Below are positions 10,353 through 59,954 of a stretch of DNA of 64,000 bases, piece after piece. The position numbers and the translations under genes were made by a program. Location of the stretch: assembly GCA_947567625.1 (NCBI GenBank), contig CANONN010000001.1, positions 62,001-126,000 of the forward strand, given 5' to 3'. The notes under the pieces were generated by a model. That model was not told the DNA's origin. It did no database searches and was given only the letters and a program-made list of their open reading frames with translations. Every line of letters starts with the position of its first letter. Within the stretch, counting starts at the first letter, position 1. Origin of the DNA: an uncultured Roseburia sp. Lineage in GTDB: Bacteria; Bacillota; Clostridia; Lachnospirales; Lachnospiraceae.

Positions 10353-10456
10353 AAAAATCCCCATTTCCGCATTGCGAACGACGTTCGCATTTGCTTTTTG
10401 CGCAATAGCGACTTTGTGTAAGCCATTATGGCTTTGCAGCGCGCAGACACAAGATC
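10353..10456 (-). repeat. Interspersed 5'-UTR element, copy A (before the methyltransferase gene)
   Basis: In gene orientation it runs from CTTGTGTCTGCGCGCTGC through the hairpin AAGCCATAATGGCTT, then GCGCAAAAAGC, then the palindrome TGCGAACGTCGTTCGCA, and ends AATGCGGAAATGGGGATTTTT just before the ATG. The final GAAATG is exactly 9 nt from the start codon, as in copies B, C and D. It sits between the DUF1653 gene (ends 10474) and the methyltransferase gene. Its upstream half is in another frame than in copies B and C. Confidence 0.9.
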
Positions 10457-10473
10457 TGGCCTTTGTATTTCCC

Positions 10474-11397
10474 CTAAAATCTGCCCCGCTCACTCTCATA
10501 GCGCTGCTTGGTGCGGATACAATATTTGAGCTGCTCATAGCGGTCCATAATATCCCCCTCCGGTATCACCACATCGCTGACGACCGCCATATTGTTGATC
10601 ATCCGATCGTCCACACAGTCGCGCATCGACACTAAAATATTGTAGCGCTCTTCAAGATCGTCCGTATCCAAAAACTCCATGAACTTGGGGTGAATCTGTT
10701 CCCCGCCGGCCGGCGTATCCTCCTCTCCGCCTGACGTAAGCTGCTCTTCATCGTCAGGCGAACGATTCTCTTTCCGGCCTGACGAGAACTTCTCTTCATC
10801 GTCAGGCGAACGATCGTCTTTCCGGTCTGACGAGGGCTGCTCTTCATCGTCAGGCGAACGATTCTCTTTCCGGCCTGACAAGAATTTCTTTTCATCGTCA
10901 GGCGAACGATTCTCTTTCCGGTCTGACGAGAATTTCTCTTCATCGTCAGGCGAACGATTCTCTTTCCGGCCTGACGAGGGCTGCTCTTCTCTGCGGCCGG
11001 ATGCCTGCGCTTCACTCCCGGCAGCAGCCGTGTCAGCGTCAGTTGGCACATCCATCATAAAGCGTATGGCAAGCCGCTCTACCAGTTCGTCCTCCGGGGA
11101 TACCGGCGGTTTCTTCTCCTCTTCCCGGCGCTTGGCCTCTGCACTGTATTGCATGCCAAGATCTTGTCTCTCTACCCGCTCAAAACGGTACTTTTGTACC
11201 ACGTCCGGGTATTTTTGATGGTCCACCTCGCCGGTAAACATCTCCAGAGGTCTTGCGTATACGCTGTAATCCCCATACAATGCCTGATAGATCACAAGCT
11301 CCTCGCCCGTCTCCGTGTGGGAGGCTACGGCGATCACCTGATACAGTTTATTTTTGAAATGACGATACAGTTCTCCGCACTTTGGTGTATACTCCAT
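10474..11397 (-). CDS. DUF1653 protein with internal repeat tract
   Basis: The 307-aa product has an N-terminal DUF1653 domain (about 1-75: CGELYRHFKNKLYQVIAVA, LVIYQALYGDYSVYARPLEMF). A linker and a charged repeat region (144-223) follow. A conserved-looking C-terminal helical domain (about 235-307, FMEFLDTDDLEERYNILVSM) ends it. DUF1653 folds are small beta domains of unknown function. The central tract is five 16-residue repeats rich in Arg, Ser, Asp and Glu and is probably disordered. The gene is upstream of the methyltransferase on the same strand, separated by the UTR element. Confidence 0.8.
   Translation of the reverse strand: MEYTPKCGELYRHFKNKLYQVIAVASHTETGEELVIYQALYGDYSVYARPLEMFTGEVDHQKYPDVVQKYRFERVERQDLGMQYSAEAKRREEEKKPPVSPEDELVERLAIRFMMDVPTDADTAAAGSEAQASGRREEQPSSGRKENRSPDDEEKFSSDRKENRSPDDEKKFLSGRKENRSPDDEEQPSSDRKDDRSPDDEEKFSSGRKENRSPDDEEQLTSGGEEDTPAGGEQIHPKFMEFLDTDDLEERYNILVSMRDCVDDRMINNMAVVSDVVIPEGDIMDRYEQLKYCIRTKQRYESERGRF
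10729..10968 (-). repeat. Coding minisatellite, five 48-bp units inside the DUF1653 gene
   Basis: Five 16-codon units read RKENRSPDDEEKFSSD with small changes (for example RKDDRSP, EEQPSSD, EEQLTSG). The DNA copies are also very similar, so the array is young and can change length in whole units without shifting the frame. It lies in the linker between the two conserved domains. Confidence 0.9.
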
Positions 11398-11563
11398 GCT
11401 GTCACTCTCTTTCTTGCGCTCTCCAAAAGTTACACTGCCGCAAAGAATCCCGGCAGTTATATGATTTTATTATAAACATTTTGGCAAGATTTCTCAACTG
11501 GAAAATGTTGCTTGCAACGCGGATTTTTTGGCCATTTAGTATTACAGCCAAACGGTTACCGTG

Positions 11564-11905
11564 TCACACGAAATCTTCGCGCATCGGCTGAAAGATATCC
11601 AAAAGAATCCCCGCTTCCAGGCAGACACAGCCATGCTCGACCGCATTTCTTTTTAACAGGCAGTCCCCGGCGCGCACAATCTTTTTTTGGCCGTCAACCG
11701 TAAATTCAAACTCCCCGCTGACCACATATGTAATCTGCGTGTGCGGATGATGGTGCATGGCACCGACGGCGCCCTGTTCAAAATGATTCTCCACACACAT
11801 CATCTCGTCCGCGTAAGCCAAAACCTTGCGTTCCACCCCCGCGGCCGCCTGCTCGCCCGAAATATCACTGTTAAAATTCCACACCTGATTTTTTGTAGTT
11901 TTCAT
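11564..11905 (-). CDS. Small cupin-domain protein
   Basis: The 113-aa single cupin has the metal-binding histidine cluster HHHPHTQ (motif 1, about 51-57) and the second motif GDCLLKRNAVEHG (about 80-92), with the beta-strand TYVVSGEFEFTVDG between them. Such proteins bind a divalent metal and can be isomerases, dioxygenases or sensors. The reaction cannot be predicted here. AAAGGAG lies 7 nt before the ATG. It appears to be a single gene between two minisatellites. Confidence 0.85.
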   Translation of the reverse strand: MKTTKNQVWNFNSDISGEQAAAGVERKVLAYADEMMCVENHFEQGAVGAMHHHPHTQITYVVSGEFEFTVDGQKKIVRAGDCLLKRNAVEHGCVCLEAGILLDIFQPMREDFV

Positions 11906-11934
11906 TCTGCTCTCCTTTACTCTTTACCAACAAA

Positions 11935-12253
11935 CCTCTTGTATCTCTTCTGTCCGGTCTGTCTCAATACACTTGTATTTCTTCTATACTCTTCCTGTCT
12001 GTCTCAATGCTCTTGTATTTCTTTTTTTCTATACTCTTCCTGTCTGTCTCAATGCTCTTGTATTTCTTTTTTTCTATACTCTTCCATTATATCTCAATAC
12101 TCTTGTATCTCTTCTTTTCTTCTATACTTTTCCTGTCTGTCTCAATACTCTTGTATCTCTTTTTTCTTCTATTCTCTTTCTATCTCAATACTCATATATC
12201 TCTTCTTTTTTTCTATACTCATCCGGCTTGTCTCAATACTCGCGAATCTCTTC
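11935..12253 (-). repeat. Minisatellite of about eight 38-48 bp units extending from the 3' end of the DctP-like gene
   Basis: Read on the minus strand, the unit is GAAATACAAGAGCATTGAGA followed by CAGACAGGAAGAGTATAGAA plus a short A-rich stretch of variable length. The first unit contains the last six codons and stop of the neighbouring DctP-like gene (GAAGAGATTCGCGAGTATTG + A), so the array looks like serial duplication of the gene's 3' end. It fills the whole 327-bp gap to the cupin gene; I see no promoter or terminator in it. Confidence 0.85.
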
Positions 12254-13249
12254 GATGATATCGAGATATTCCCCACAATACTTTTCATAAACGCCCTGCA
12301 TCGCCGCCTGGAACTTTCTTTTTTCTTCCTGTGATAATTCTACCACCACGGTCCCATTGGCCACCGCAATTTCTCTTGACCGCTCCTCGCGCTCTTTCCA
12401 AAGCTCCCTCTCATAGAGTGCAGACTCCCGCGCGCAGACGCGCAGGATCTCCTGATCTTCTGCCGAGAGCTTCTCCCAGGTAAATCTCGAGCAGAGCTGC
12501 AATTCGGGTATCCTCGAGTGCTCGTCAATCGTGTAATAGGGCGCAACCTCGTAATGCGTTGTCGATTCATAGGACGGCCAGTTATTCTCGGCCCCCTCCA
12601 CCACGCCGCGCTCCATGGCGGAATAGACATCTGCATAGGTGATGGGCACCGCCGTCGCCCCCAGCGCTTCCACAATATCTTTCATCGTGTCGGATTCCTG
12701 CACACGGACCCGCATCCCCTGCATATCGGCAAGACTGGTGACGGGTTTGTCCGTAGAATAAAAATTCCTCGCCCCCGCATCATACCACGAGAGGCCGATC
12801 AGATCAATCTGCCTTGTCTCCGCCAGAAACTCGTCTCCAAGCTGCCCCTCGAGCACCCGCCACATATGCTCGGAATCCTGGTACAGATACGGCATTTGCA
12901 GCACATTCATCTTCGGCACGGCGTCCGCCACCTGCGCCAGCGACACGCGCGCAAAGTCTATGCCGCCGTAGCGCATCTGATTGATAACCTCGGTCTCACT
13001 GCCGAGCACAGCGCCCGACTTGACCAGAATCTGTATGCGCCCTTCGGTTCGCTCCGCGACCAGCTCGGCAAACCTCTTGCCGCCCTCTGTCGTCGGGTAA
13101 TCTTCCGCCTGGTTTTCGGCATAGGTAAACACATATTCCGGCGGCGCCGTGCGGAGCGGCTTCTGCCCAATGATCCAGTATATGCACACCGCCACCAGCA
13201 AGATCAGAACCACCGGCAGAATAATCTTAAATTTCCCTTTAATTTTCAT
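12233..13249 (-). CDS. DctP-like TRAP solute receptor, membrane anchored, linked to a two-component system
   Basis: The chosen start (13249) has GAGG 6 nt upstream; an ATG at 13261 overlapping the regulator stop is the alternative. The 338-aa product has one N-terminal membrane segment (about 9-29) and no lipobox cysteine. The body is a DctP/TRAP receptor: SGAVLGSETEVINQMRYGGI, VLQMPYLYQDSEHMW, GMRVRVQESDTMKDIVEALG (with the substrate-carboxylate Arg) and ERGVVEGAENNWPSY. It lies directly behind the kinase and regulator genes, and a second, lipoprotein DctP is encoded with the permease. I infer that this copy presents the substrate to the kinase and does not act in transport. Confidence 0.85.
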   Translation of the reverse strand: MKIKGKFKIILPVVLILLVAVCIYWIIGQKPLRTAPPEYVFTYAENQAEDYPTTEGGKRFAELVAERTEGRIQILVKSGAVLGSETEVINQMRYGGIDFARVSLAQVADAVPKMNVLQMPYLYQDSEHMWRVLEGQLGDEFLAETRQIDLIGLSWYDAGARNFYSTDKPVTSLADMQGMRVRVQESDTMKDIVEALGATAVPITYADVYSAMERGVVEGAENNWPSYESTTHYEVAPYYTIDEHSRIPELQLCSRFTWEKLSAEDQEILRVCARESALYERELWKEREERSREIAVANGTVVVELSQEEKRKFQAAMQGVYEKYCGEYLDIIEEIREY

Positions 13250-13257
13250 TGGCGCCC

Positions 13258-14046
13258 TCATTTCTGCCGCAAAATGTTCAGCCTGTAATCGCTGGGCGTC
13301 ATCCCCATCATCCGCTTAAACACCTTGGCAAAATAGTTGGAATCACGATACCCCACCTTTAAACTGATATCCTTGATATTGATCGACACGTCCGCCAAAA
13401 GCGCTTTCGACTGCTCCACACGGTATTCCGATAGATAGACCACAAAACTCTTGTCGAAACACTGTTTAAACAGCTTACAAAAGTAGGCGTCGGAATAATT
13501 GAGCGAACTGGCAATCTCCTGCAGCGAAATGTCATCCATATAATGTTTCTCGATATAACCTCTGATATAATCTGTCACTGCGTTGGCACGGATATTTTCA
13601 GCGAAAGTCCCCTCCTTTCCCTCCTCCGCTCCGTCCGGCTGCTGTGCGGTATTTTTCGGCGCCTCTAGCTGCTCGTCAGTCCTGCGGATTGCCTCCTCAA
13701 GCACCATGACAAGCTCCTCCTCCGTCCCTGGCTTTAGCAGATAATCTAAGGCTCCCACAGAGATCGCGCGCTTCGCATAGCTGAACTCGTCAAAGGCCGT
13801 CAAAAATATGATACAGATTTTTTTGTGTTGTTCCCTGATTCGTTCCGCCGCCGCAAGGCCGTTGATTCCCGGCATCTCGATATCGAGAAGCGCAATATGG
13901 CAGTTTTCCCGCTCAAAAAGCTCCACCGCTTCCCTGCCGTTGACCGCTTCCACCACCTCCAATTGGCTCATGAAATTTTTCTCGATTCTCTTTCTCACCA
14001 CTCTGCGCTCTATGGATTCATCATCCGCCACCAAAATGCGATACAT
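13258..14046 (-). CDS. Response regulator with AraC-type DNA-binding domain
   Basis: The 262-aa product has a receiver domain (about 1-120) with D8/D9, phospho-acceptor D55 in IALLDIEMPG and K105 in DYLLKPG. A charged linker follows, then two AraC helix-turn-helix motifs (about 165-260: ISLQEIASSLNYSDAYFCKL and ISLKVGYRDSNYFAKVFK). This is the YesN-type architecture. The kinase gene ends 12 bp upstream and the DctP-like gene overlaps or follows immediately, so the three form one unit. It should activate the TRAP genes in response to their substrate. Confidence 0.92.
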   Translation of the reverse strand: MYRILVADDESIERRVVRKRIEKNFMSQLEVVEAVNGREAVELFERENCHIALLDIEMPGINGLAAAERIREQHKKICIIFLTAFDEFSYAKRAISVGALDYLLKPGTEEELVMVLEEAIRRTDEQLEAPKNTAQQPDGAEEGKEGTFAENIRANAVTDYIRGYIEKHYMDDISLQEIASSLNYSDAYFCKLFKQCFDKSFVVYLSEYRVEQSKALLADVSINIKDISLKVGYRDSNYFAKVFKRMMGMTPSDYRLNILRQK

Positions 14047-14058
14047 CCCTTCGCCCCC

Positions 14059-15555
14059 CTATTCCTGCTGCCTTTTTTCTTTCTGCGGTATCTTTAGGAC
14101 CGCCACTGTCCCCACGTCTTTTCTGCTGTATATGTGCATACTCCCGTTCTCATACATCGCATAAATTCTCCGATAGACATTGGATATCCCGATGCCGCTG
14201 CGCGCATCCGACCGGTCCTCCAGCCGCCGCTGCAACTCCTCCCGCTGCTCTGCCGTCATACCCACACCGCTGTCGGCAACCGTTATGTGAAGCAAATCTT
14301 GCGTCTGCCAGATACGAATACGAATCTTCCCGCCCTCCTCTTTCGGCGAAAGCCCATGGATAATGGCATTTTCCACCAAGGGCTGAAACGTGTATGTGGG
14401 CACCCATACTTTTTGGTCGTTCACCTGGTTATCAATCACATAGAGGACTCTGCTGCCAAACCGCATCTGCTGTAAATACAGGTAGTCCTCGACCACCTTA
14501 AGTTCACGCGCCAAAATCACCTCCGCCTCCGGCGTCTTTAAGTTATAGCGAAACAGAGAGCTTAACGCCTGAATCATCTTCTCCGTCGTCACGGCATCCT
14601 CCAGCGTCGCCATACCGCCGATGACGTTTAGCGTGTTAAACAGAAAATGCGGCTGAATCTGGCTCTTTAACAGTTCCAGATTCATCGACTCAAGACGCTT
14701 TTCCGTCTCCAGCATCGCCCGCTCCTCTTCGTGCAGCAAATCAAGCGTTTTTCGCTTTTCCTCCAGCGCCATGATATATTCCCCGGTCGCATACTTCATT
14801 TTGTTAAACGCGTGCACCAGCTCCCCCATCTCGTCCTCATTGTCTACCGTCACATCCTCCACAAAAAAATCATTGGCTGCAATTTTTTTTGATATCCGTA
14901 CCAATTTCATGATCGGGTCCACGATCGCCTGATAGGTCAGGCGGCTCATGCGCACCATGACAAACAACAGGAGGTAACCGATCACTCCGACGATAATCGG
15001 CACGCGCACCAGCCATGGCACCATCTTTTGGTAGACGGTGCTGCCCGACACCAAAGTCTCCGACATCAACATTTTGGCGTACCCCTGTAAATAATCCTGC
15101 ATATCATACACTTCATAGAGCCTGCGGATATAGCCCGTCTCTCCCTCGGGCAGCTCCAGCATCGTATCTCTCCGCTCCCGGTACACTTCATAACAGTTGC
15201 GGATTGACCATGTCCTCGCATAGCGCTCCTCCCCGATCTTGGCATAATCAAAAGGCATCGCCTCGACTGCCTTTCTGGTTTCCTCGATAGCCAGAAGCAT
15301 TCTGGCCTTTGTATCATCCTGCCCGTTTTTGATGTAGGCGCGAAACAGCGCCCTCTCATTCTCCAGGCACCCCGACAGATTGCTGCACTTTACGTTGTCC
15401 TGTAGAATATTGTTAAAATCCAGCAGCGAAAAGCGTACCATCCACAGATTTAAGAGCACAGACAATATAATAATGAGCAGCATGACCCCCGTGTAGCTGA
15501 CAATCTTTTCTTTGATGGTGATCGATAGCCATATTTTGTAAAACCGTTTGCGCAT
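14059..15555 (-). CDS. YesM/LytS-type sensor histidine kinase of the TRAP locus
   Basis: The start at 15555 has GGGAGG with 7-nt spacing; upstream in-frame ATGs have no such site. The 498-aa protein has a TM at about 20-40, an extracellular sensor domain (41-178), a second TM at about 181-202 and a HAMP linker (about 205-258). The atypical His-kinase box has phospho-acceptor H303 in QPHFLFNTLN. The ATPase domain shows LVENAIIHGL, VADSGVGM and SGIGISNVYRR. It is partner of the AraC-type regulator and probably reads the DctP-like receptor. Confidence 0.92.
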   Translation of the reverse strand: MRKRFYKIWLSITIKEKIVSYTGVMLLIIILSVLLNLWMVRFSLLDFNNILQDNVKCSNLSGCLENERALFRAYIKNGQDDTKARMLLAIEETRKAVEAMPFDYAKIGEERYARTWSIRNCYEVYRERRDTMLELPEGETGYIRRLYEVYDMQDYLQGYAKMLMSETLVSGSTVYQKMVPWLVRVPIIVGVIGYLLLFVMVRMSRLTYQAIVDPIMKLVRISKKIAANDFFVEDVTVDNEDEMGELVHAFNKMKYATGEYIMALEEKRKTLDLLHEEERAMLETEKRLESMNLELLKSQIQPHFLFNTLNVIGGMATLEDAVTTEKMIQALSSLFRYNLKTPEAEVILARELKVVEDYLYLQQMRFGSRVLYVIDNQVNDQKVWVPTYTFQPLVENAIIHGLSPKEEGGKIRIRIWQTQDLLHITVADSGVGMTAEQREELQRRLEDRSDARSGIGISNVYRRIYAMYENGSMHIYSRKDVGTVAVLKIPQKEKRQQE

Positions 15556-15714
15556 CCCATTGCCTCCCGATTTCTTAAAGATGCGCTTTCTGCATCTTTT
15601 GCGCCCGTGCATATGAAAAAGCATCACTTTACTAATAAAGTAAAAATGGCAGCAGCGTGAGTCTGCCGAAATGCATTTCCATTCCGGCAGCGCTCACGCG
15701 ATCGCCGCCTTAAA

Positions 15715-16191
15715 TCACTGACTCTGTCCAATCTTTTCTTTTACTGCCTGATAAAATGATTCTTTCTCTCTGCCAAGCATCCTGTCGCTGAGCATATAGC
15801 CATGTCTCGCATCTGAAAATAATATCAGCATCTTGTATTCTCTGACGATTCCCCGCATCTTACTCCAGGGTATCGTCTCCCGCTGCTGTCCCACCGCGAC
15901 ATGCAGTCCCCGCTCGTCAAAATGGAGCTCCATATCCCGCGGAATCACCGCCGCCTGCCCCTTGGCCTTTAGATAGACGGCGAAAGGCTGCAATACCGGG
16001 AATAAAATACACCCCAGGAACATCAATACTTGCAAGATATCGTTGGCCTGATAAAAGAATTTTCCCGTCAATATGATAATCGCCACAGTAAATACGATAT
16101 TGCACACACCTATGACGGAACGGTAAGTTCGACGCATCGACAACCGCCACAGATCAAACGGCGTAATATTACTTTTAAATGTGTAATCCAT
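15715..16191 (-). CDS. YcxB-like membrane protein
   Basis: The 158-aa protein starts DYTFKSNITPFDLWRLSMRR and has two membrane segments (about 26-46 and 53-73). A cytoplasmic YcxB-like C-terminal domain (LHFDERGLHVAVGQQRETIP, WSKMRGIVREYKMLILF) follows. Members are widespread in Firmicutes and of unknown function. It lies between the TRAP permease (dctM ends 15 bp upstream) and the kinase gene, on the same strand, so it is probably co-transcribed with them. Confidence 0.78.
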   Translation of the reverse strand: MDYTFKSNITPFDLWRLSMRRTYRSVIGVCNIVFTVAIIILTGKFFYQANDILQVLMFLGCILFPVLQPFAVYLKAKGQAAVIPRDMELHFDERGLHVAVGQQRETIPWSKMRGIVREYKMLILFSDARHGYMLSDRMLGREKESFYQAVKEKIGQSQ

Positions 16192-16206
16192 AGGCTCTCC
16201 CGCAAT

Positions 16207-17511
16207 TTAACCTGTATAGCCGCCCCAAACTCTCGGCAGGAACAAGCTGATCTCAGGTATAAAGGTCAATAGCAGCAATACAACAATCATGCAAAGATAG
16301 AACGGCAGTGTCGCCTTTACGACTTTCTCCATCTTTACTTTCCCGACCGCGGAACCGATAAAAAGCACGGCGCCTACCGGCGGCGTCAAAAGACCGATAC
16401 CACAGTTTAATACGATCATAATACCAAACTGTATCGGATCGATACCGATCGCCGTTGCAATCGGAAGCAAAATAGGCGTTGCAATCAAAATAATCGGCGC
16501 CATATCCATAATACATCCGAGAACCAGTAAAATCAAGTTTAATAACAATGCAATGATAATCGGGTTATCCGTCAAGCCAATAATCGCCTCTGATGCCAAC
16601 GTCGGCACATGCAGCGTAGTAAGGCAGTATCCGAAGATGCTCGACGTTGCAATCAATATCAGCACGATAGACAACGTGTCGACACACTGCTCTAAAATAT
16701 GCCATACGCCTTTCCAGTTTACACCTTTATAGATAAATACACTGACAATCAAACTGTAGATAACGGCAATTGCCGCGGACTCAGTCGCCGTAAACCAACC
16801 GGCTACAACGCCGACCACGACGATCACGACCGCACCCAGCGCCCAGAAAGAAATAATAAACTGTTTTCCCAGCGCCTTGATACTGAACTTATCACCCTTT
16901 GGATATTTTCTTCTCTTTGAGATAATAAAAGAGCCAACCATCAGGGAGATCGCCAACAGCGCGCCCGGCAGATAACCGGCGAGAAACAGGCTTCCCACGG
17001 AAACACCGCCGGCTGACATCGCGTAGATAACCATATTATGGCTCGGCGGCACCAAAAGGCCCTCACAAGAGGAAGTAATCGTGACCGCCGTGGAAAAATC
17101 GCCGTCATACCCCTGATCTACCATCATCGGAATCAGGATACTTCCGAGAGAAGCCGTATCCGCAGCCGCAGAACCGGAAATCCCCCCGAAAAAGTAGGAT
17201 GCCACGATATTTACCATCGCCATGCCTCCAGTCATCCAGCCCACACAGGCGTTGGCTAGTGCAATCAGCTTTTCCGATATGCCTCCGGTGCCCATCAGAC
17301 ATCCCATCGTGATAAAGAACGGCACGGCCATCAAACTGAAAGAACTGATACCTTTCACCATCTGCTGACAGATCGTCGTCAACGGCAGCCCCTGCGATAA
17401 CAGGCAAAAAAGGGAAGACAAGGCTACCGCATATGCAATAGGAAATCTCAAAAATATCATCACAATAAAACTAATCAGCAATACTGCGATTGCAATCGTC
17501 TGCGTACTCAT
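16207..17511 (-). CDS. dctM: TRAP transporter large permease subunit DctM
   Basis: The 434-aa protein is hydrophobic throughout, with about 12-13 predicted membrane helices. It has the DctM signatures PFFITMGCLMGTGGISEKLI, FGGISGSAAADTASLGSILI, PSHNMVIYAMSAGGVS and NPIIIALLLNLILLVLG. It forms the sodium-coupled channel part of a tripartite ATP-independent periplasmic transporter. Its ATG overlaps the dctQ stop by 4 bp (ATGA). The substrate is likely an organic acid but cannot be named from sequence. Confidence 0.93.
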   Translation of the reverse strand: MSTQTIAIAVLLISFIVMIFLRFPIAYAVALSSLFCLLSQGLPLTTICQQMVKGISSFSLMAVPFFITMGCLMGTGGISEKLIALANACVGWMTGGMAMVNIVASYFFGGISGSAAADTASLGSILIPMMVDQGYDGDFSTAVTITSSCEGLLVPPSHNMVIYAMSAGGVSVGSLFLAGYLPGALLAISLMVGSFIISKRRKYPKGDKFSIKALGKQFIISFWALGAVVIVVVGVVAGWFTATESAAIAVIYSLIVSVFIYKGVNWKGVWHILEQCVDTLSIVLILIATSSIFGYCLTTLHVPTLASEAIIGLTDNPIIIALLLNLILLVLGCIMDMAPIILIATPILLPIATAIGIDPIQFGIMIVLNCGIGLLTPPVGAVLFIGSAVGKVKMEKVVKATLPFYLCMIVVLLLLTFIPEISLFLPRVWGGYTG

Positions 17512-18035: not shown

Positions 18036-18063
18036 CTTCTCTACCTCCTTCTATTTTTTAAGG

Positions 18064-18105
18064 TAAAAAAGGGTACAGAGGGAGTGAGTTCGCTCTGTAC
18101 CCAAA
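18064..18105 (-). terminator. Hairpin with T-run between dctP and dctQ
   Basis: On the minus strand GGGTACAGAG pairs with CTCTGTACCC around a ~12-nt loop and is followed by TTTTTT. It lies inside the operon, 35 bp after the dctP stop, and probably causes partial termination so that the binding protein outnumbers the membrane subunits. Confidence 0.8.
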
Positions 18106-18138
18106 ACACACTGCAAGATGTTGCTTATTGGTGTGATT

Positions 18139-19251: not shown

Positions 19252-19286
19252 ACCCTCCTTGTTCCTGTGATAACATTTTATGTCTC

Positions 19287-19319
19287 AATGAACTTTACAA
19301 TATCATTATAAAGTTCATT
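19287..19319. promoter_or_regulatory. Inverted repeat over a -10-like box upstream of dctP
   Basis: An 11-bp perfect inverted repeat (AATGAACTTTA and TAAAGTTCATT) with an 11-bp spacer lies 36-68 bp before the dctP start. On the minus strand a TATAAT (19305-19310) overlaps it. It is a candidate operator for the regulator of the TRAP genes or for another repressor. I see no good -35 box. Confidence 0.5.
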
Positions 19320-19368
19320 ATGCACAAAAGATACAAGACATTTTTTAGATTATTAGTACAATTTTAAC

Positions 19369-31748: not shown

Positions 31749-32600
31749 TTAAATCTGTTTTAACTTCTCGACTCCCGCCGCAAGCTCCTTATGCTCTAAA
31801 TCCATAATCCTGCCCTCATCGGCCCTTTTCGCATACGCCGGGTCGAGCGGCAGCTTGCCGAATACCGGCAGCCCCAGGTCGGCAGCCACTTCCTCCACAT
31901 GGCTCTCGCCGAACAGTTTGATCTCTCTGCCGCAGTCGGGGCACTTGAGATAACTGAAATTCTCGACCAGGCCGAGCACCGGCACATGCATCATGTCCGC
32001 CATGTTGTACGCTTTCTTTACAATCATCTGCACGAGCTCCTGCGGCGACGTCACGATCACAACCCCGTCCACCGGCAGTGACTGAAACACCGTGAGCGGA
32101 ACATCCCCGGTTCCCGGCGGCATATCGACAAACAGATAATCAAGGTCTCCCCACACGGTCTCGTTCCAAAACTGCTTGACAACGCCGGCGATCACCGGGC
32201 CGCGCCAGATCACCGGCGCCTCCTCGTCATCGAGCAGCAGATTGACCGAAACGATCTTCACGCCGTTCTCCGCCTCCATCGGCACCATACCACCCTCGCC
32301 TCCAACAAGCTGGCCGTGTACGCCGAATATTTTGGGTATCGAAGGCCCTGTGACGTCCGCGTCCATAATGCCCACCTGGTAACCTGCCTTCGCCATGGCG
32401 CAGGCGAGCGAGGCCGTGACAAATGATTTGCCGACGCCGCCTTTGCCGCTGACAATACCGACCACTTTCTTGATATGGGAAAACTCATTCATCGGCTCTT
32501 TTCCGATTCCGTTTCCATTCCCTTTTTTGTTACTCGGGCAGCCCTCGCAGCTCTCCTTGCTGCAGGTGGATGCTCCGCTGCAATTACTATTCTCTGGCAT
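31749..32600 (-). CDS. Mrp/NBP35-type P-loop ATPase (Fe-S cluster carrier)
   Basis: The start at 32600 follows the UTR element; the in-frame codons upstream are the element. The 283-aa product begins with a Cys-rich segment (CSGASTCSKESCEGC) as in Nbp35. It then has the deviant Walker A GIVSGKGGVGKSFVTASLAC, the switch VDMPPGTGD and a C-terminal CxxC (LKCPDCG). Such proteins dimerise and hand Fe-S clusters to apoproteins. It lies upstream of dnaE on the same strand. Confidence 0.92.
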   Translation of the reverse strand: MPENSNCSGASTCSKESCEGCPSNKKGNGNGIGKEPMNEFSHIKKVVGIVSGKGGVGKSFVTASLACAMAKAGYQVGIMDADVTGPSIPKIFGVHGQLVGGEGGMVPMEAENGVKIVSVNLLLDDEEAPVIWRGPVIAGVVKQFWNETVWGDLDYLFVDMPPGTGDVPLTVFQSLPVDGVVIVTSPQELVQMIVKKAYNMADMMHVPVLGLVENFSYLKCPDCGREIKLFGESHVEEVAADLGLPVFGKLPLDPAYAKRADEGRIMDLEHKELAAGVEKLKQI

Positions 32601-32732
32601 AATTTTCTCCATTTCTGCATTGCGAACGATGTTCGCATTAGCTTTATTGCGCATATCGAGTTTGTGTAAGCCATAAATGGCTTTGCAACGCGCAGACACA
32701 AATCTCGCGATTGAAAATTTTAATTTTCAATC
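32601..32732 (-). repeat. Interspersed 5'-UTR element, copy B (before the Mrp gene)
   Basis: In gene orientation it has an AT-rich perfect palindrome (32709-32732, arms GATTGAAAATT and AATTTTCAATC). Then come GATTTGTGTCTGCGCGTTGC, the hairpin AAGCCATTTATGGCTT, GCGCAATAAAGC and the hairpin TGCGAACATCGTTCGCA. It ends AATGCAGAAATGGAGAAAATT directly before the ATG. Sequence is nearly identical to copy C. Confidence 0.92.
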
Positions 32733-32834
32733 TTCCTCCTATATTCTGCATTGCAAACTATCGTTGCATGAATTCTTTGCGCACAGCAAGTCTGTGTATG
32801 TCATAGATGGCTTTCCCTTGTGCTGACACAAATC
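32733..32834 (-). repeat. Interspersed 5'-UTR element, diverged copy B' in tandem upstream of copy B
   Basis: In gene orientation it starts GATTTGTGTCAGCACAAGGG and has the degraded hairpin AAGCCATCTATGACATAC. It keeps GCGCAAAGAATTC and the stem TGCAAC/GTTTGCA, then ends AATGCAGAATATAGGAGGAA. The landmarks occur in the same order and spacing as in the other copies. A full AGGAGG occurs where the other copies place their ribosome-binding site. Confidence 0.8.
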
Positions 32835-32878
32835 TTTCCAAAATAAACACAAGAGAACGCATCCCTTGTTTCAGACAA

Positions 32879-42217: not shown

Positions 42218-42255
42218 ACGAAGGATAAGTGTGAACAATAAATTTTTCACACGGC

Positions 42256-42371
42256 GATTTGTGTCTGCGCGCTGCAAAGCCATACTGGCTTACCATAATG
42301 GCTTACACAAAGTCGCTTATGCGCAAAAAGCAAATGCGAACGTCGTTCGCAATGCAGAAATGAGGATTGGT
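42256..42371 (+). repeat. Interspersed 5'-UTR element, copy D (before ABC ATPase 2)
   Basis: The sequence runs GATTTGTGTCTGCGCGCTGC, an enlarged hairpin (AAGCCAT ... ATGGCTT), ATGCGCAAAAAGC, the palindrome TGCGAACGTCGTTCGCA and AATGCAGAAATGAGGATTGG, 1 nt before the ATG. Directly upstream, GTGTGAA and TTCACAC (42229-42252) form a hairpin at the place where copies B and C have a hairpin of different sequence. It is inside an operon, between the GntR gene and the ATPase gene. Confidence 0.9.
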
Positions 42372-43028
42372 ATGGAACAGGAATTATTGAAGCTTGCACA
42401 AGTATCTGGAAAGAAAAACAAAGGATTTGTACTATCGAACATCAGTTTTTCTCTGCCGGCTGGCTATATTATGGGAATCGCGGGGAAGAACGGCGCGGGA
42501 AAAACGACCCTGATCGACTATATCATCCATCCGGTAAAACAGTATACCGGCAGTATGACACTTCTGGGCGAAGAAATCCATGACAATCCCGTGAAAATGC
42601 GGGATAAAATTGGTTTTGTCTCCGACAACAATCACTTTTTTCTGGAGCGGTCCGCAAAACAGAACGCACAAATTACCGGAGTCCTCTATGACAACTGGGA
42701 TATGGATCTGTTTTTTCAGGCCATGGACCGCATGGAGCTCTCGCCGTCAAAAGTGGTGGGAAAAATGTCGCGCGGAGAGCAGATGCGTTTCCAGATGGCC
42801 TACGCCATGGCACATCGGCCGGTATTGTATCTGCTCGACGAGGTGACCGCGGGCATGGACCCCGTCTTTCGCATTGATTTCTTCCGGGTGCTGCAGCAAG
42901 TGATCGCAGAGGAACAGGCATCGGTGCTGATGACAAGCCATATCGAGGAGGAACTCGGCCGCAAAATGGACTATATCGGCGTGCTGGAGAACGGTAAACT
43001 GATCTCGTTTGAAGAGCAGGCAGGTTAA
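42372..43028 (+). CDS. ABC transporter ATP-binding protein 2 of the GntR-linked module
   Basis: The start at 42372 lies 9 nt after the element's GAAATG, with AGGA as ribosome-binding site. The 218-aa protein has Walker A GIAGKNGAGKTTLIDYII, the signature region VVGKMSRGEQMRFQMAYAMA, Walker B VLYLLDEVTAGMDP and the switch His in LMTSHIEEE. It resembles YtrB-type ATPases paired with YtrA regulators. The membrane partner follows. Confidence 0.9.
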   Translation: MEQELLKLAQVSGKKNKGFVLSNISFSLPAGYIMGIAGKNGAGKTTLIDYIIHPVKQYTGSMTLLGEEIHDNPVKMRDKIGFVSDNNHFFLERSAKQNAQITGVLYDNWDMDLFFQAMDRMELSPSKVVGKMSRGEQMRFQMAYAMAHRPVLYLLDEVTAGMDPVFRIDFFRVLQQVIAEEQASVLMTSHIEEELGRKMDYIGVLENGKLISFEEQAG

Positions 43029-48669: not shown

Positions 48670-48812
48670 ATCCTCTTATTGTTCAAACATCCATGCTCTT
48701 TACCAAAGTAAAAAAGCATCTACAGACTGCTCGCTCAGGTTGGCACCTTCCATACGGGGTTGCCGTGACTTCACAGATCCTTTGTATCTCCATCACCTCT
48801 GAATAAGAAAAT
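48670..48812 (-). ncRNA. SAM-I (S-box) riboswitch upstream of metK
   Basis: On the minus strand the aptamer opens with CTTATTCAGAGGTGATGGAG and has the core GTGAAGTCACGGCAACC, then GGTGCCAACCTGAGCGAGCA. It closes with AATAAGAGG, whose AATAAGA pairs with the opening TCTTATT (P1). These are the conserved S-box segments in the right order. With SAM bound, P1 forms and the downstream terminator stops transcription, lowering metK expression. Confidence 0.9.
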
Positions 48813-51982: not shown

Positions 51983-52113
51983 AACTAAACGACCATGCCT
52001 TTCAACGTAATCCTTTTACTCCATACAAATACGTTATTATAATTATTACTGTACCCATTTGTCAAGTAAATTACATTTACAAATTTATTTCATTTGTGTT
52101 GCAAACGTTGTCA

Positions 52114-53646: not shown

Positions 53647-53776
53647 ATCACATATTTCCTTCCTCACATACTGTTTCTCCAAAAACACCCACCGGCCACG
53701 TTTTGCCTGATGGGTGCTGTTTGTTTCTGTTCGTCTGCCTATTCCTGCCGGCATTTTACATGGTCAGTATTTGCCG

Positions 53777-54820
53777 TCACTCTTCTTCTGTCGTTGCTGT
53801 CTCGCTCCCGGATTGCGAACTCTCCGCCGTGGTGGTAAACAGATTGTCAAATGTAATCGTTCCGACTGCTTTTTCGTCCACCGTCCATGCGATATCTTCT
53901 TTCCAGCCCTCCAAGGTCTCGTCATAGAGCGTCGTTTCGCGCTCTGTCACGATCGACTTCTTGGTGGCGTCGGTCGCTTCGCGGTCCATCTCCTTATCCA
54001 GGCGCACTACATAATAATAGGTGTCGGTATCAATGACGTCTGACACCGCTCCCTCTTTGGCCGAACGCAGCGCTGTGATCACCGCCTCGTCAAAAGTATC
54101 GTCATCCGCGGTAAAGCTTGCCGTACTTACGGTGTATTCGTAATCTTCAGCGACATCCTCCAGCGTGCCGGCCTTTGCCTCCGCGGCAAACTGGTCAACT
54201 TTTTCTTTTAAAGCATCCATATCCGCAGACACCGAGTCCGCATCATCGGATTCTGACGCCTTTTCCACACGCACATAAGAAAAAGTACCTGTCTTTGCCT
54301 CCTCGTCGGACACCTCCTTGTCCACATCGGCGATCATCGCCTTGCGCATCTTTGCCGCTATGGTTGAAAGGCGCAGGTATTCTTCGACGTACTCCTGGTC
54401 CGCTCCCATGGCGTCGATGGCCTTCTTGCTGTTGTCCGCCAAAAACTGCTCCGCCGCGGCCTTAATGTCCGCAAGCTCCTGCTCGCTTACCGTCACCTGA
54501 TACTCTTCCATGTGGCGCTCTAAGGTATAGATATTTTTTAGGGAATCCATGACGCCGTTTACCAGGTCATCTTTCATCGTACTGCCGTTGCCGTACAAAT
54601 CGGCTGTCCAGAGGTCGTCCCCTTTGTTAAAATACATCTTATATATATCGTCATAACTTGCCTGCTGGTATCTTGCTATAAAATTTACCAAGCCAAGCTC
54701 CACATCCGTGTCCTCAAAATGAGCCGCGGACGCCCCTTTATTGATACCGCCGCAGCCGCCCGTCAGCGACGCCGCCATCACCGCGCTTAATAGTAACGCT
54801 GTCAGTCTTTTTGCTTTCAT
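53777..54820 (-). CDS. PrsA/SurA-like foldase lipoprotein
   Basis: The start at 54820 (MKAKRLTALLLSAVMAASLT) gives 347 aa with a lipobox around GGC (Cys23). The N-terminal half is helical (chaperone-like). Residues ~185-290 resemble a divergent parvulin rotamase (AEDYEYTVSTASFTADDDTF, ALRSAKEGAVSDVIDTDTYY, YVVRLDKEMDRE). The Thr/Ser/Glu-rich tail is low complexity. It probably assists folding of secreted proteins at the membrane. It follows mfd on the same strand, an arrangement common in Firmicutes. Confidence 0.82.
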   Translation of the reverse strand: MKAKRLTALLLSAVMAASLTGGCGGINKGASAAHFEDTDVELGLVNFIARYQQASYDDIYKMYFNKGDDLWTADLYGNGSTMKDDLVNGVMDSLKNIYTLERHMEEYQVTVSEQELADIKAAAEQFLADNSKKAIDAMGADQEYVEEYLRLSTIAAKMRKAMIADVDKEVSDEEAKTGTFSYVRVEKASESDDADSVSADMDALKEKVDQFAAEAKAGTLEDVAEDYEYTVSTASFTADDDTFDEAVITALRSAKEGAVSDVIDTDTYYYVVRLDKEMDREATDATKKSIVTERETTLYDETLEGWKEDIAWTVDEKAVGTITFDNLFTTTAESSQSGSETATTEEE

Positions 54821-54931
54821 ATATTTTATTACCTTCTTCCTCATTGCTGTGTGTAATGTCAGGCGGATATACCGGGTGGCAACGCCCTCTGGCATTACAG
54901 TTGCTTCCTATTATAGCCTTTATTGAGCTAT

Positions 54932-57900
54932 TTAGCAATCACTTTCAGAAAAAACTGTCCTGGCATCCTCCAAAAACTGCCCGAGCACCTTTAAAACATC
55001 GACATTCTTATCTCTGGAATTGGCGTAGAGCAAATATTCCAGCCGCGGCGCTTTGGCATCGGGTATAAACTTAAGCCGTCCCTCATATCTCTTAAGCAGC
55101 TCCGGGATTTTGGCCACATCCAGCTTCGCGCGCTCATAAAAACGAAAACACAGCCGTTCGCCTTTCTGCGCGATCTCCGTAAAGTACACGGCATGCGCCA
55201 GGGTTTTTAAGCGCGCCACCGCCAGCAGATTTTCCACCGGCCTGGGGAGATCGCCGAAGCGGTCGATCAATTCCTCCGTAATCTCTTCGGCCTCGTCCTC
55301 GTTATCAATGCCGGCAATGCGCTTATAGATATCCAGCTTCTGAAACTCATTGGGAATATATCCCATGGGAATATAGGCATCGACCGTGATATCGATCGAT
55401 GTGTCGTAGCGCTCCGCCACGGCGGTGCCTTTGGCCTCTTTCACCGCCTCATTGAGCATCTTGCAGTAGAGATCATAGCCGACGGCCTCCATATGGCCGT
55501 GCTGCTCTGCCCCCAGGAGATTGCCGGCCCCCCGTATCTCCAAATCGCGCATGGCAATCTTGAAACCGCTGCCAAGCTCGGTATACTCTTTGATGGCCGC
55601 CAGACGTTTTTCCGCGATCTCTTTTAACATCTTATCCCGCTTATACATCAGGAAAGCGTAAGCCGTGCGGTTTGAGCGCCCGACTCTGCCCCGTAGCTGA
55701 TAGAGCTGGGATAATCCCATATTGTCGGCGTCATGGATAATCATGGTATTGACATTGGAAATATCAAGCCCGGTCTCTATGATCGTCGTCGAAACCAGCA
55801 CGTCGATCTCTCCGTTGATAAAGCGGTACATGATATTTTCAAGCTCCGTTTCTTTCATCTGCCCGTGGGCGTAAGCGACCACGGCCTCCGGCACAAGCGA
55901 GGCCAGCTTCGCCGCCACGTCACCGATCTCGCGCACACGGTTATAGACATAATACGCCTGCCCGCCCCGCGCCAATTCCCTGGACACCGCCTCGCGCACA
56001 AGCTCTTCATTGTACTCCATCACATAAGTCTGAATCGGCAGTCTGTCCATCGGCGGCTCCTCGAGCACGCTCATATCCCGGATGCCAATCAGGCTCATGT
56101 GAAGCGTCCGGGGAATCGGCGTCGCCGTCAAAGTCAGCACGTCGATATTGTTTTTCAACTGCTTGATCTTTTCCTTGTGCCCCACGCCAAACCGCTGCTC
56201 CTCATCCACGACCAGAAGTCCGAGATCTTTGTAGACAATGTCCTTGGACAGCAGCCTGTGCGTACCGATCACAATATCAACCATCCCTTTGCGCAGATTT
56301 TCCACGACTTTTTTTTGTTCCCCAGCGCTGCGGAAACGGCACATAAGCTCCACATTGACCGGAAAATCTTTCATTCGCTGGATAAAGGTATTATAGTGCT
56401 GCTGCGCCAAGATCGTCGTCGGCACCAAAAAGGCCACCTGCTTGCCGTCCTGTACGGCCTTAAACGCTGCGCGTATGGCGATCTCTGTTTTTCCGTAGCC
56501 CACATCGCCGCAGATCAGGCGGTCCATAATTTTTTTGCTCTCCATATCCGCCTTGGTCGCCGCGATTGCAGTCTCCTGGTCCTCCGTCTCCTCAAACGGA
56601 AACATTTCCTCAAATTCCCGCTGCCATACCGTATCCGGCCCGTAGGCAAACCCTTCCTTGCTCTGTCTCGCCGCATAAAGGCGCACCAAATCCGAAGCGA
56701 TCTCTTTTACCGCTCCCCGCACTTTTGTCTTTGTCTTATTCCACTCCTGGCCGCCCAGTTTATTTAACTTCGGCTTTTTGGCGTCCGCGCCCGCATATTT
56801 TTGAATCAGCTCCAGCTGTGTCGCCAAAATATAGAGATTGCCGCCCCCGGCGTATTCGATCTTGATATAATCCTTTAAGGTCTTATCCACCTCTATTTTT
56901 TCGATGCCGCGGTAGATTCCCAGGCCATGATTCTCATGCACGACATAATCGCCGACGCTAAGGTCCGTGAAACTGGCGATTTTTTCCCCTTCGTAGGAGC
57001 GGCGGCGTTTTTTCTTTTTCTTCTCACCGCCGAAAATATCGCTCTCCGAGATCACCACAAACTTTAGCAGGGGATATTCATATCCTTTTTTCACTTTGCC
57101 GTAAGCCGTCATGATCTCCCCGGGCTTCACCAGATGATCGTAATCGTCGGTAAAAAAACTGTTTAATCCCTCCGCGGACAAATCTTCCGCCAGGCGCTTC
57201 GCGCGGCTCTTAGAGCCGGACAAAAGCACCGCCCGATATCCGTTTTTCTTGTATCGCGTCAGGTCTTTCACCAAAAGCTCAAAGCTGTTATTGTAGGGAT
57301 TGACCGTCCTCGTCTCGATATGAAAACGCTCCTCGATGGCGAGATGGGGATTTTTCATATCGAGCGCCACCATAGAGACAAGACGGTAACGCTGCAACCT
57401 GGCTAATACTTCCCTGCACGCGTACAGCTCGCGCATCTGTCCCGGCAGGATATACCCCTTTTCCAGACGCTGTTTCATGCTCTCCGAAAACTCCGTCTCG
57501 GTGGAAATTCCCCGCTCGATGGTGCGGGCCGCCTCATCCAATATGACGATCGTATGCTGCGGGTCAAAATAATCGAGCAGCGACACCCGCTCGCTGCAAA
57601 AATAGGACAGGTAGGCATCGAGACCCGCCGTGATCTCCAACTCTTCCACCTCTTCCCGCAGCTGTTTGGCCGCCGAAATGACCCGATAGGCTTCCTCCGT
57701 TTTCATCTCTTTTCGCATCTTTGCAGAAACCGTATTGGCCTCCCGCATCAAACGCTCAATGCCGTCCCGCTGCTCCTCCTTGGTGAGCACCAGCTCGCAG
57801 GCGGGATAGATGTGAATCTCCTCCTGATTTTCGATGGAGCGCTGGCTTTCCGGGTCAAAGGAGCGGATGGAATCGATCTCATCCCCCCACAGCTCGATGC

Positions 57901-58483
57901 GGTAGGGATTTTCCTCTGTCAGAGGAAATACGTCAAGAATCCCGCCGCGGACCGAAAACTGTCCGCTGGCCTCCGCCTGGTCGTTCTTTTCATAGCCGAG
58001 TTCCACGAGATGGCGGGTAAACTCCCCTAAATCAATCGTATCCCCCACCCGCAGGCCGCGCACCGCCTGAATAAATTTTTCCGGCACAGGCATCGGATTC
58101 ATCAGCGCGTCAAACGTCGTCACTACCGTGCAATTCTTTTCCTCCGCCAGCATTTTGAGCACATTCATCCGCTCCGCCGTCAGCAGATTGCCGCGGATAT
58201 CCGACTGGTAAAATAAGATATCCTTGGCCGGATAATACGCGGTGCGGCGGTCAAAAAAGCGGTATTCGGCACACATTTCCTTGGCTTTTTGCTCATGAAA
58301 AGTGACAATGATTCTGTTTCCAGAACCATTGCCCATGCCGTAGATCATATGTGGTTTTGCCGCGTCGATGCAGCCGGAGATCTGAAGCACACCCGATTTT
58401 TTGCGCTGCCGCCACAGCTCATCCAATTCTTTTAATTCTTCCAACGGAGCAGTAAACGTTTTCACAATTTCTTCCTCATCCAT
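54932..58483 (-). CDS. mfd: Transcription-repair coupling factor
   Basis: The 1183-aa Mfd removes stalled RNA polymerase and recruits UvrA. Visible are the UvrB-like N-domain ([20 protein letters not shown]), the RNA-polymerase-interacting domain ([20 protein letters not shown]), and helicase motifs [36 protein letters not shown] and [37 protein letters not shown] and [16 protein letters not shown] are also present. The TRCF C-terminal domain is present. It lies 17 bp behind pth. Confidence 0.97.
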
Positions 58484-58500
58484 CCGCTAACGCGGCCAAA

Positions 58501-59061
58501 TTAGTTATATAAGTTCATCGCCCGATCTATTTCTTCCTGCACGATCAGTTCAGCGGCCGAGAGCGCCTTGGCGACGGCGTCCTCCACTTCTGCCCGCTCT
58601 TCGCTGGAAAAATGGCCCAGCACATGATCGGCCAGGTCCCAGCCCTTTGGTTTTTCTCCCACCCCGACTTTGATGCGCTGAAACTCCTGCGTGCCGCACA
58701 TGGCGATAATGCTTTTGATGCCGTTATGTCCGCCGGCGCTGCCTTTTGCGCGCACCCTCAGCCGCCCGGGCGCAAGGCTGATATCGTCGTAGATCACCAG
58801 CAATTCGTCTGTCGGATTTAATTTATAATAGTGCAAAAGTTCTGCGACACTCTCACCGCTTAAATTCATATATGTCTGCGGCTTCGCCAGAATGACTTTT
58901 CTCCCGGCAATCACGCCCTTGCCGCAGAGCGCCTTGTTTTTCCTGCTTTCAACTGTAATATTATATTTGTCCGCCATAGCGTCTATGACATCGAACCCCA
59001 CATTGTGGCGGGTGTTCTCATACTGCTTGCCCGGGTTCCCGAGACCGACAATTAAAAACAT
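58501..59061 (-). CDS. pth: Peptidyl-tRNA hydrolase
   Basis: The 186-aa enzyme releases peptides from dropped-off peptidyl-tRNA. It has LIVGLGNPGKQYENTRHNVG with catalytic H19, KPQTYMNLSGESV, VIYDDISLAPG and KGSAGGHNGIKSI. AGGAG precedes the ATG. The order glmU-pth-mfd matches that in Bacillus and many clostridia. Confidence 0.96.
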   Translation of the reverse strand: MFLIVGLGNPGKQYENTRHNVGFDVIDAMADKYNITVESRKNKALCGKGVIAGRKVILAKPQTYMNLSGESVAELLHYYKLNPTDELLVIYDDISLAPGRLRVRAKGSAGGHNGIKSIIAMCGTQEFQRIKVGVGEKPKGWDLADHVLGHFSSEERAEVEDAVAKALSAAELIVQEEIDRAMNLYN

Positions 59062-59084
59062 ACTGTTCTCCTGCTTGCTGTTTT

Positions 59085-59822
59085 CTATCGCTGCCTGCGG
59101 CGTATCACTTCGGCCGCCGCCTTCAACTGTTCTTTATCATTGACGCCGGTGATATCCTCCGCATTCTCCAGCGCAAACGCGTCCACCTTCAGCCCTTTTT
59201 CTTTTATTATGGTGAGCGTGTCGGGAAGATAATATTCTCCCTGCGCGTTATTTGGCGTGATCTGTTCTAACGCTTCCCGCAGCGCGCGGGTGTCAAAAAG
59301 GTACATGCCGGAATTAATCTCGTGGGAGGCGCGCTCTTTCTCACTGGCGTCCTTGTGCTCTACACTCTTTGCAAATAATCCATTTTGATCGCGGATAATC
59401 CTGCCATAGCCATCCGGGTTATCGACCAATGCGGAGAGCACCGTCACCGCATTGCCGTGGCGCTCATGGTAATCGCAAAGCCGCCGCAGTGTTTCGGCCG
59501 TAATTAACGGCGTATCGCCAAACAGTATCATCGTTCTGCCGCTCTCTCCGAGAAAATCACTTGCGCATTTGACCGCATGCCCCGTGCCAAGCTGCTGCTC
59601 CTGCAGCACAAACGTGACATTCTTGTGCGCAATCCGCTCATGCACGATCTCGTATTTATAGCCCACCACCAGACAGATTTCCTCTGCCCCTGCGCCGATG
59701 GCGGCGTCGATGGCATAGTCAACCAGGCATTTGCCTTCTATTGTATGTACCACTTTGGGCAAATCCGATTTCATGCGGGTTCCCTTGCCCGCCGCTAAGA
59801 TCACTGCTTTTAAATCTTTCAT
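59085..59822 (-). CDS. UDP-GlcNAc pyrophosphorylase, GlmU N-terminal domain only
   Basis: The start at 59822 follows UTR element copy C. The 245-aa nucleotidyltransferase has KAVILAAGKGTRMKSDLPKV, LQEQQLGTGHAVKCA, MILFGDTPLITAETL, NPDGYGRIIRD and EINSGMYLFDT, as in the uridylyltransferase half of GlmU. The left-handed beta-helix acetyltransferase half (about 200 residues) is absent and the stop is clean. It should make UDP-GlcNAc from GlcNAc-1-P. Acetylation must come from another enzyme. Confidence 0.9.
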   Translation of the reverse strand: MKDLKAVILAAGKGTRMKSDLPKVVHTIEGKCLVDYAIDAAIGAGAEEICLVVGYKYEIVHERIAHKNVTFVLQEQQLGTGHAVKCASDFLGESGRTMILFGDTPLITAETLRRLCDYHERHGNAVTVLSALVDNPDGYGRIIRDQNGLFAKSVEHKDASEKERASHEINSGMYLFDTRALREALEQITPNNAQGEYYLPDTLTIIKEKGLKVDAFALENAEDITGVNDKEQLKAAAEVIRRRQR

Positions 59823-59954
59823 AATTTTCTCCATTTCTGCATTGCGAACTATGTTCGCATTAGCTTTATTGCGCATATCGAGTTTGTGTAAGCCATAAAT
59901 GGCTTTGCAGCGCGCAGACACAAATCTCGCGATTGAAAATTTTAATTTTCAATC
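59823..59954 (-). repeat. Interspersed 5'-UTR element, copy C (before the glmU-like gene)
   Basis: Nearly identical to copy B over its whole length. It has the AT-rich palindrome (59931-59954), GATTTGTGTCTGCGCGCTGC, the hairpin AAGCCATTTATGGCTT, the hairpin TGCGAACATAGTTCGCA and the end AATGCAGAAATGGAGAAAATT. In the last hairpin only the loop differs from copy B (ATA for ATC). It fills most of the gap between spoVG and the glmU-like gene. Confidence 0.92.

Follow-up and report, generated by a model that had tools for sequence, protein, structure and literature searches.

What has placed several copies of one structured repeat directly in front of unrelated genes, each in the sense orientation and each ending at the same distance from the start codon? 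The question is raised by a 64,000-nucleotide stretch of DNA from an uncultured Roseburia sp. (assembly GCA_947567625.1, contig CANONN010000001.1, positions 62,001 to 126,000 of the forward strand), which we call the window and number from its first letter. An initial annotation had reported four copies and interpreted them as a translation-initiation cassette, mobile or gene-converted, or as a cis-regulatory RNA. Judging from sequence comparison and predicted folding, we find that the repeats are probably a family of small (~75–150 bp) non-autonomous mobile elements that land in the sense orientation between the Shine-Dalgarno (SD) sequence and the start codon of a gene and replace the SD. 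The proposal of a mobile cassette is backed by a patchy distribution, by empty orthologous sites, by SD sequences left over upstream and by stacked copies.

Placement at start codons

The element consists of a 5’ hairpin (P1), a stem-loop (P2), optional hairpins, the 3’ strand of a pseudoknot, and GAAATG followed by an SD and 5–6 nucleotides, and it ends at the ATG. Read directly, the four window copies (A to D) lie where they had been placed, each sharing the coding strand of its downstream gene, and Pfam assigns these genes to four different protein types. GAAATG stands 9 nucleotides before the ATG in all four (within GGAAATG in A), and the 9-nucleotide gap contains the purine-rich SD in each. 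A leading stem is present in B, C and D, with the pairing kept by a different sequence in D, and is missing from A. Some of the earlier description needed adjustment. The start of copy D, including the leading stem, is at 42229 and not at 42256. The two hairpins that had been named, AAGCCAT/ATGGCTT and TGCGAAC-N3-GTTCGCA, indeed occur in all four copies, but they are optional modules (P3 and P4 below), and the common core is P1, P2 and the pseudoknot. Finally, the four copies are real but far from alone, as the 3.42 Mb genome has 41 places found by blastn and 55 matches to a covariance model (R1). The window features are as follows.

32601–32732, minus strand: copy B, from P1 to the new SD, before an mrp-type gene
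32709–32732, minus strand: P1 of B, perfect A/T-rich hairpin forming the element’s 5’ end; two pairs differ on both sides between subtypes
32657–32707, minus strand: P2 of B, stem CGAG.TTTGTG/CACAAA.CTCG; its loop holds the P3 module AAGCCAT/ATGGCTT and the pseudoknot 5’ strand TCTGC
32621–32637, minus strand: P4 module of B, optional hairpin TGCGAAC-N3-GTTCGCA
32614–32618, minus strand: pseudoknot 3’ strand of B, GCAGA, directly 5’ of AATGGAG (the replacement SD) and pairing with TCTGC of the P2 loop
32607–32610, minus strand: replacement SD of B, GGAG, carried by the element
32735–32739, minus strand: leftover upstream SD, GGAGG, at B the end of an older copy
32744–32835, minus strand: older, degenerate fifth copy directly upstream of B, absent from the initial annotation
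31749–32600, minus strand: gene after B, Mrp/NUBPL-type ATPase, 283 aa, PF10609 (Pfam)
10353–10460, minus strand: copy A, P1 missing, before a methyltransferase gene
9123–10352, minus strand: gene after A, methyltransferase-domain protein, 409 aa, PF13679 (Pfam)
59823–59954, minus strand: copy C, before a nucleotidyltransferase gene; the orthologous start lacks the element in four relatives
59085–59822, minus strand: gene after C, GlmU-like nucleotidyltransferase, 245 aa, PF00483/PF12804 (Pfam)
42229–42371, plus strand: copy D, of the GTGTG subtype and with an additional hairpin repeat, preceding an ABC ATPase gene
42372–43028, plus strand: gene after D, ABC transporter ATPase, 218 aa, PF00005 (Pfam)

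Eleven other full-length copies in the genome are 96.9–99.2% identical to B and have differing flanks, which rules out chance as an explanation and indicates that the copies spread recently. The blastn search with copy B gave the 41 places. Spacing was read from a blastn set of 44 oriented rows, 43 of them distinct, whose query ended before the ATG. The ATG follows a GAAATG-type anchor by 9 nucleotides in 36 of these and by 10 in three; the four exceptions are a copy cut by a contig end, a copy with ATA replacing the ATG, an inner tandem copy and the degenerate copy at 32744–32835. Only short frames follow in four of the 39 spaced copies (50 aa at L016, 22 and 27 aa at L017, 10 aa at L019). 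We then examined 121 copies, comprising 56 of 57 hits in the genome itself and 65 of 66 in relatives from the genus (two hits were dropped, one partial and one truncated by a contig end). An ATG with an open reading frame of at least 60 aa stands at the element end in 104 of them; the frame is 30–59 aa in six and shorter in another six, and the ATG is absent in five, one of which has a TTG with 267 aa. Similarly, a frame of at least 60 aa begins at the element end at 24 of 28 loci from other members of the family (30 were returned, two from the genome itself).

Because model R1 contains the ATG, we built a second model, R2, in which the element stops short of the SD and ATG. This model relies largely on sequence, since RNAalifold on its alignment (A2) gave a structure lacking P2. 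It matched 54 places in G000, 29 in G053 and 48 in G059, and an ATG within 40 nucleotides, with a frame of at least 50 aa or one running off the locus, was present at 34 of 40 newly fetched places. At four of the remaining six the ATG is inside the match (272 aa at L284, 91–99 aa at L281, 48–62 aa at L249 and L250), another has ATA replacing the ATG, and the last opens only a short frame. An SD was scored in 102 of 109 copies, and in 82% of these 102 the new SD lies 5–6 nucleotides from the ATG. Thus the spacing is not random, and the copies sit mostly at the 5’ ends of genes, in the sense orientation.

Empty sites, leftover SD sequences and stacked copies

R1 matched 24 of 61 sampled genomes of the genus, with up to 48 matches per genome, and had no match in the other 37. 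In the wider family, with one genome per genus and our own included, matches were found in at least 27 of 250 genomes; counts from this family search are lower bounds, as scoring was limited to 13 candidates in each genome. Scanning genome contigs for a pattern gave 14 stretches, all in one uncultured Roseburia sp. assembly.

We compared nine element-bearing genes with their orthologs in relatives, 35 gene–genome pairs in total: the gene after C in four genomes, and eight others across six genomes with one to six found per gene. From their sequences we take these eight to be valS, tktN, ilvN, yycJ, glyS, fabF, tal and purM (rpiB, deoC and trpC were also queried and gave no usable relative). 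No full element was seen in any of the 35 pairs, and R2 found nothing credible in the 34 loci of the relatives, its two matches having E-values of 0.62 and 0.76. The start codon coincides with that of the relatives in eight of the nine genes, all except valS. Inspection of mrp, the gene after B, by eye showed an SD and the same start without the element in G022, G020, G008 and G023, while an upstream in-frame ATG obscures the start in G015, G019 and G004. Orthologs of the genes after A and D are less alike, and by eye their starts could not be aligned with confidence.

The flanks point to insertion downstream of an existing SD. GGAG or GAGG occurs in the 5’ flank of 64 of 100 copies; the corresponding counts are 89 of 700 for control windows and 94 of 247 for native gene starts. 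The distance from this upstream SD to P1 is variable, with a median of 4. An element-like 3’ end (at least 10 of 12 letters) directly abuts P1 in 12 of 120 copies and shows up in 1 of 360 controls; the abutting stretch at L022 resembles the end of a long subtype. The flank always ends in AA before elements of the GATTG type and mostly in TA before those of the GTGTG type. We also noted a hairpin like GCCGCnnnnGCGGC, followed by an ATG/GAGG-like end, just upstream of four elements (L032:1538, L024:1513, L017:1518 and window copy C, at ~59955–59990). This kind of hairpin is perhaps another, older insert.

A second, unrelated repeat, (A/C)AAATCC...CATTTTCCTTCGGAAAACARGGAGG, which we call the CCTTCGG-hairpin family, also abuts ATGs in relatives. 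It was found in three of ten genomes tested, at 43 places. It stands directly before ATGs at loci L285–L314 (from G020, G022 and G053), L194 and L201, and forms tandem stacks at some genes. Among 31 copies, 24 have an ATG within 14 nucleotides and a frame of at least 50 aa or one running off the locus, four are inner tandem units and three lack a frame of such length. In 26 of the 31, GGAGG directly adjoins the unit on its 5’ side. By eye, the 5’ end of this unit could pair with the leftover GGAGG. As an independent case, the second family strengthens the view of the SD–ATG gap as a special landing site.

The same observations bear on a process that would need no dedicated transposase, namely gene conversion among leaders, through template switching or recombination where short SD sequences (GGAGG...) are homologous. 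SD-like sequence on both sides of the element, the stacked copies and the GGAGG joined to the second-family units all fit such a process. Simple crossing-over at the SD should, however, give the reverse of the spacings we see, as in the main family the distance from the new SD to the ATG is constant and that from the upstream SD to P1 is variable. We therefore regard this explanation as unlikely, while taking it seriously.

Folding, covariation and downstream genes

We aligned 24 sequences, 19 from the genome itself and five from human-gut contigs (alignment A1). P1 is an A/T-rich hairpin, and subtypes begin with GATTG or GTGTG, or with GAGTG in relatives. The P2 stem CGAG.TTTGTG/CACAAA.CTCG is shifted in other subtypes to GCGA/TCGC or CAAG/CTTG, AAGCCAT/ATGGCTT and TGCGAAC/GTTCGCA are optional hairpins, and the 3’ end is GCGCAGAAATG plus the SD. 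The stems covary: the numbers of paired cells and of cells changed on both sides, and the covariation score, each lie above all 500 shuffles. Depending on the subtype, small hairpins such as the AAGCCAT/ATGGCTT palindrome are found at different positions of the element (L123, L125, L077 and several of L267–L280) and look like interchangeable modules.

In 146 collected elements, 134 of them parsable, the P2 loop is often complementary to the strand just before the SD, with pairings such as TCTGCGCGC:GTGCGCAGA, TCTGTGCGGC:GCCGCGCAGA, TTCTGAGCGA:TCGCTCAGAA, CCGGAGCGC:GCGCTCCGG and TGTCAGAGC:GCTCTGACA; the longest run is five or fewer in 36 of the 134. Using anchors independent of the pairing, we scored seven positions in 63 unique strand pairs from 112 of the 146 elements. 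These positions are paired in 79.4% of cases, compared to 72.8 ± 1.2% with partners swapped (maximum of 1000 swaps, 77.6%), and all of the first six pairs are kept in 28 of the 63. When 99 unique pairs were tested in a second way, runs averaged 7.1, and 5.7 after swapping. The pseudoknot signal is real, though shared sequence accounts for much of the pairing. By eye, the last hairpin of some G053 copies instead varies from GCGC/GCGC to GCCC/GGGC, and an alternative pairing is thus possible there.

The stretch from SD to ATG is predicted to be more open than in native SD genes (0.56 versus 0.475, n = 98 and 99), with more structure upstream. From these features we suggest how an insertion could be tolerated. 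A putative inserting activity would place the element in the SD–ATG gap, and the structure would keep the folded leader clear of the new SD and thereby allow translation to go on. Because the element brings its own SD at a good spacing, in an accessible ribosome-binding site, its insertion would be nearly neutral even in essential genes, and it would survive where other insertions are lethal. The leader would later decay except for its SD end, on which the gene now depends, a process that could be called ribosome-binding-site capture.

Covarying helices and a pseudoknot directly 5’ of the SD, together with the sense orientation and fixed spacing, are also what would be expected of a cis-regulatory RNA, similar to a riboswitch or a ribosomal leader, that controls translation of a regulon and whose copies are kept by selection. 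The downstream genes speak against a regulon because they form an unrelated set. Besides the four window genes, a Pfam search of ten downstream proteins identified class I/II tRNA synthetases and EngA/Der, which are housekeeping proteins, as well as a PheRS beta-type chain, a cytosine methylase and an acyl transferase, and some of the host genes are of an essential type. A comparison of 110 sampled downstream proteins gave one ortholog-like pair between species (L024/L067, 78% identity, presumably RpiB-like), and the other similarities are 22–31%. Most sites thus look lineage-specific rather than like a conserved regulon. In addition, genomes within the one genus range from 0 to 48 matches, no Rfam family matches above threshold, the letters of the loop and 3’ strand differ between copies so that there is no constant aptamer core, and the SD is predicted to be open. 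A regulatory RNA is thus, in our estimation, an improbable explanation.

Mobilization and comparison with known elements

Several observations weigh against the proposal that the repeats are mobile elements landing in the SD–ATG gap. A mobilizing transposase, recombinase or autonomous relative was not identified, no direct search for an autonomous relative having been made. We found no convincing target-site duplication (best z ~2.6 over 160 comparisons per type, with 50 and 40 copies). The 110-protein comparison covers fetched copies only, and further sites shared between species are known at mrp, tktN, purM and fabF: mrp of G006 carries a different, long subtype at the same place as B, so that G000 and G006 share this site; by eye, an element-like SD end remains at purM (G004 and G023) and at tktN (G023); and an apparent, divergent copy of one short subtype stands at fabF of G020 (by eye). 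The gene that we take to be valS (L013) starts at a different codon from its orthologs in relatives, and an insertion there may have accompanied a changed N-terminus. Since the empty sites come from other species, with ~70–83% DNA identity around C, they do not prove the pre-insertion junctions, and the 5’ end of the element is uncertain by 2–3 nucleotides because the flanks end in AA or TA. Of the five covariation measures, further pair types were not extreme, being matched by 30 and 58 of 500 shuffles, and swapped pseudoknot strands still pair at 73%.

Miniature inverted-repeat transposable elements (MITEs) such as ERIC, RUP and Correia-type elements are small and interspersed and have no gene of their own. 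An ordinary MITE-like element could insert at random and be left by selection only where it is tolerated, before start codons; as a general argument, intergenic repeats can seem targeted when harmful insertions vanish. The window, however, has 286 intergenic ATGs and 61 genes under a rough gene model, so random insertion at ATGs followed by selection should leave most copies elsewhere, yet nearly all the examined copies are at gene starts. Targeting, or positive selection at starts, is needed to account for this placement. The present element also differs from MITEs in its fixed position and orientation and, as had been pointed out before, in its ends: by inspection there are no terminal inverted repeats, as GATTG or GTGTG and GGAGAAAATT mismatch when inverted and the P1 hairpin stands at one end, and no target duplication was detected. 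A MITE-like origin therefore seems very unlikely.

Hairpins towards both ends, without inverted repeats or detected target duplication, would suit an element that moves as single-stranded DNA, like those of the IS200/IS605 or REP/RAYT groups, through a Y1 transposase recognizing the hairpins. The REP/IS200/IS605 group is not known to make target duplications, and REP sequences resemble the present element in being palindromic repeats. A search of seven high-copy genomes for the Y1 transposase family PF01797, however, came up empty in five (G000, G059, G040, G011 and G046), some of the genomes searched being drafts. The family has five matches in G053 and one in G023, and was found in five of seven genomes without element matches. 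The 5’ junction also lacks a fixed 4–5-nucleotide target word. We give this origin very little credence. For a derivative of a group II intron or other RVT_1 retroelement, the expected reverse transcriptase (PF00078, RVT_1) was likewise not found in five of nine carriers (G059, which has 48 element matches, G040, G023, G046 and G136) and was found in G000, G053, G011 and G272. Neither enzyme tracks copy number, and neither is supported as the mobilizer, although a gene could have been missed because several of the genomes are drafts.

That the element is a translated N-terminal extension is barely credible: the frames of the four window genes do stay open into or through it, but by inspection the frame differs from copy to copy, owing to the 10- versus 9-nucleotide spacing and to indels in P1 and P2, and most orthologs that lack the element use the same start codon. 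An upstream leader peptide was also considered and dropped, as by inspection elements of the B, GTGTG and G053 types read in different frames. The model for such an extension is the Rickettsia palindromic element, described in an excerpt of a MITE review as a ~150 bp repeat spread into many unrelated genes without destroying them (PMC10969869). Both are small repeats dispersed among unrelated genes that remain intact, but the Rickettsia elements lie inside open reading frames and are translated in frame, whereas the present element lies before the start codon and supplies a new SD. The excerpt describes the elements it covers as mostly intergenic or in-frame, not as SD–ATG insertions (PMC10969869).

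Our searches of the PMC literature found no description of elements inserted between SD and ATG, and novelty rests on these searches. A comparable repeat is bcr1 of the Bacillus cereus group, a Gram-positive chromosomal repeat with conserved structure and mobile behaviour. The present element resembles it as a structured, probably mobile repeat of a Gram-positive; strict SD–ATG insertion or SD replacement is, to our knowledge, not described for bcr1.

Returning to the mobile-element interpretation, we tentatively consider a broader possibility: Lachnospiraceae-type gut bacteria may harbour a new class of mobile element that targets the translation start. An enzyme, or a process linked to mRNA or the ribosome, would recognize the SD and start codon and insert a structured leader as a substitute for the SD, and at least two unrelated families would have converged on this site as a safe one, stacking there time and again and steadily rewriting the leaders of essential genes. 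If this is true, selfish DNA can enter essential genes harmlessly through the SD–ATG gap, in the sense orientation and bringing a new SD, and the ribosome-binding sites of these gut bacteria are partly derived from mobile elements and repeatedly replaced. This would bear on the evolution of leaders, translation rates and operons, and raises the question of what recognizes a translation start in DNA or RNA. The element might also serve as an insulated translation-initiation part.

The reverse strand of the TD-2 RNA model (Rfam RF03162; TD presumably stands for Treponema denticola) resembles P1 plus P2, with L240 scoring 39 bits (1498–1593, minus strand), short of the 48.7-bit gathering score, on the strand opposite to the element. 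Several other elements match it weakly, also on the opposite strand, none of seven genomes has a match over the cut-off, and a TD-2 pattern had no match among 2.9 million viral contigs. The main text of PMC2864571 does not contain TD-1 or TD-2, and that of PMC8040213 does not contain Lachnospir-, Roseburia, mobile or transpos-. This likeness is no more than a lead: TD-2 may have a relative of the element on its reverse strand, and it would become likelier that such a relative is present elsewhere but catalogued on the wrong strand.

Plasmid records gave no match to the element, and its core pattern matched one stretch among the 2.9 million viral contigs. Thirteen phage records have a match, all named ‘Bacteriophage sp.’ and from human faecal samples. 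In all five that we inspected the element stands before an ATG, and all five are unannotated; such records may be bacterial DNA in virus-enriched samples. No Rfam family scored above threshold on seven further element loci, and over the window, at gathering threshold, no family fits the element, the only matches being tRNA and a SAM riboswitch. The riboswitch (RF00162, 57 bits) lies at 48673–48809 on the minus strand.

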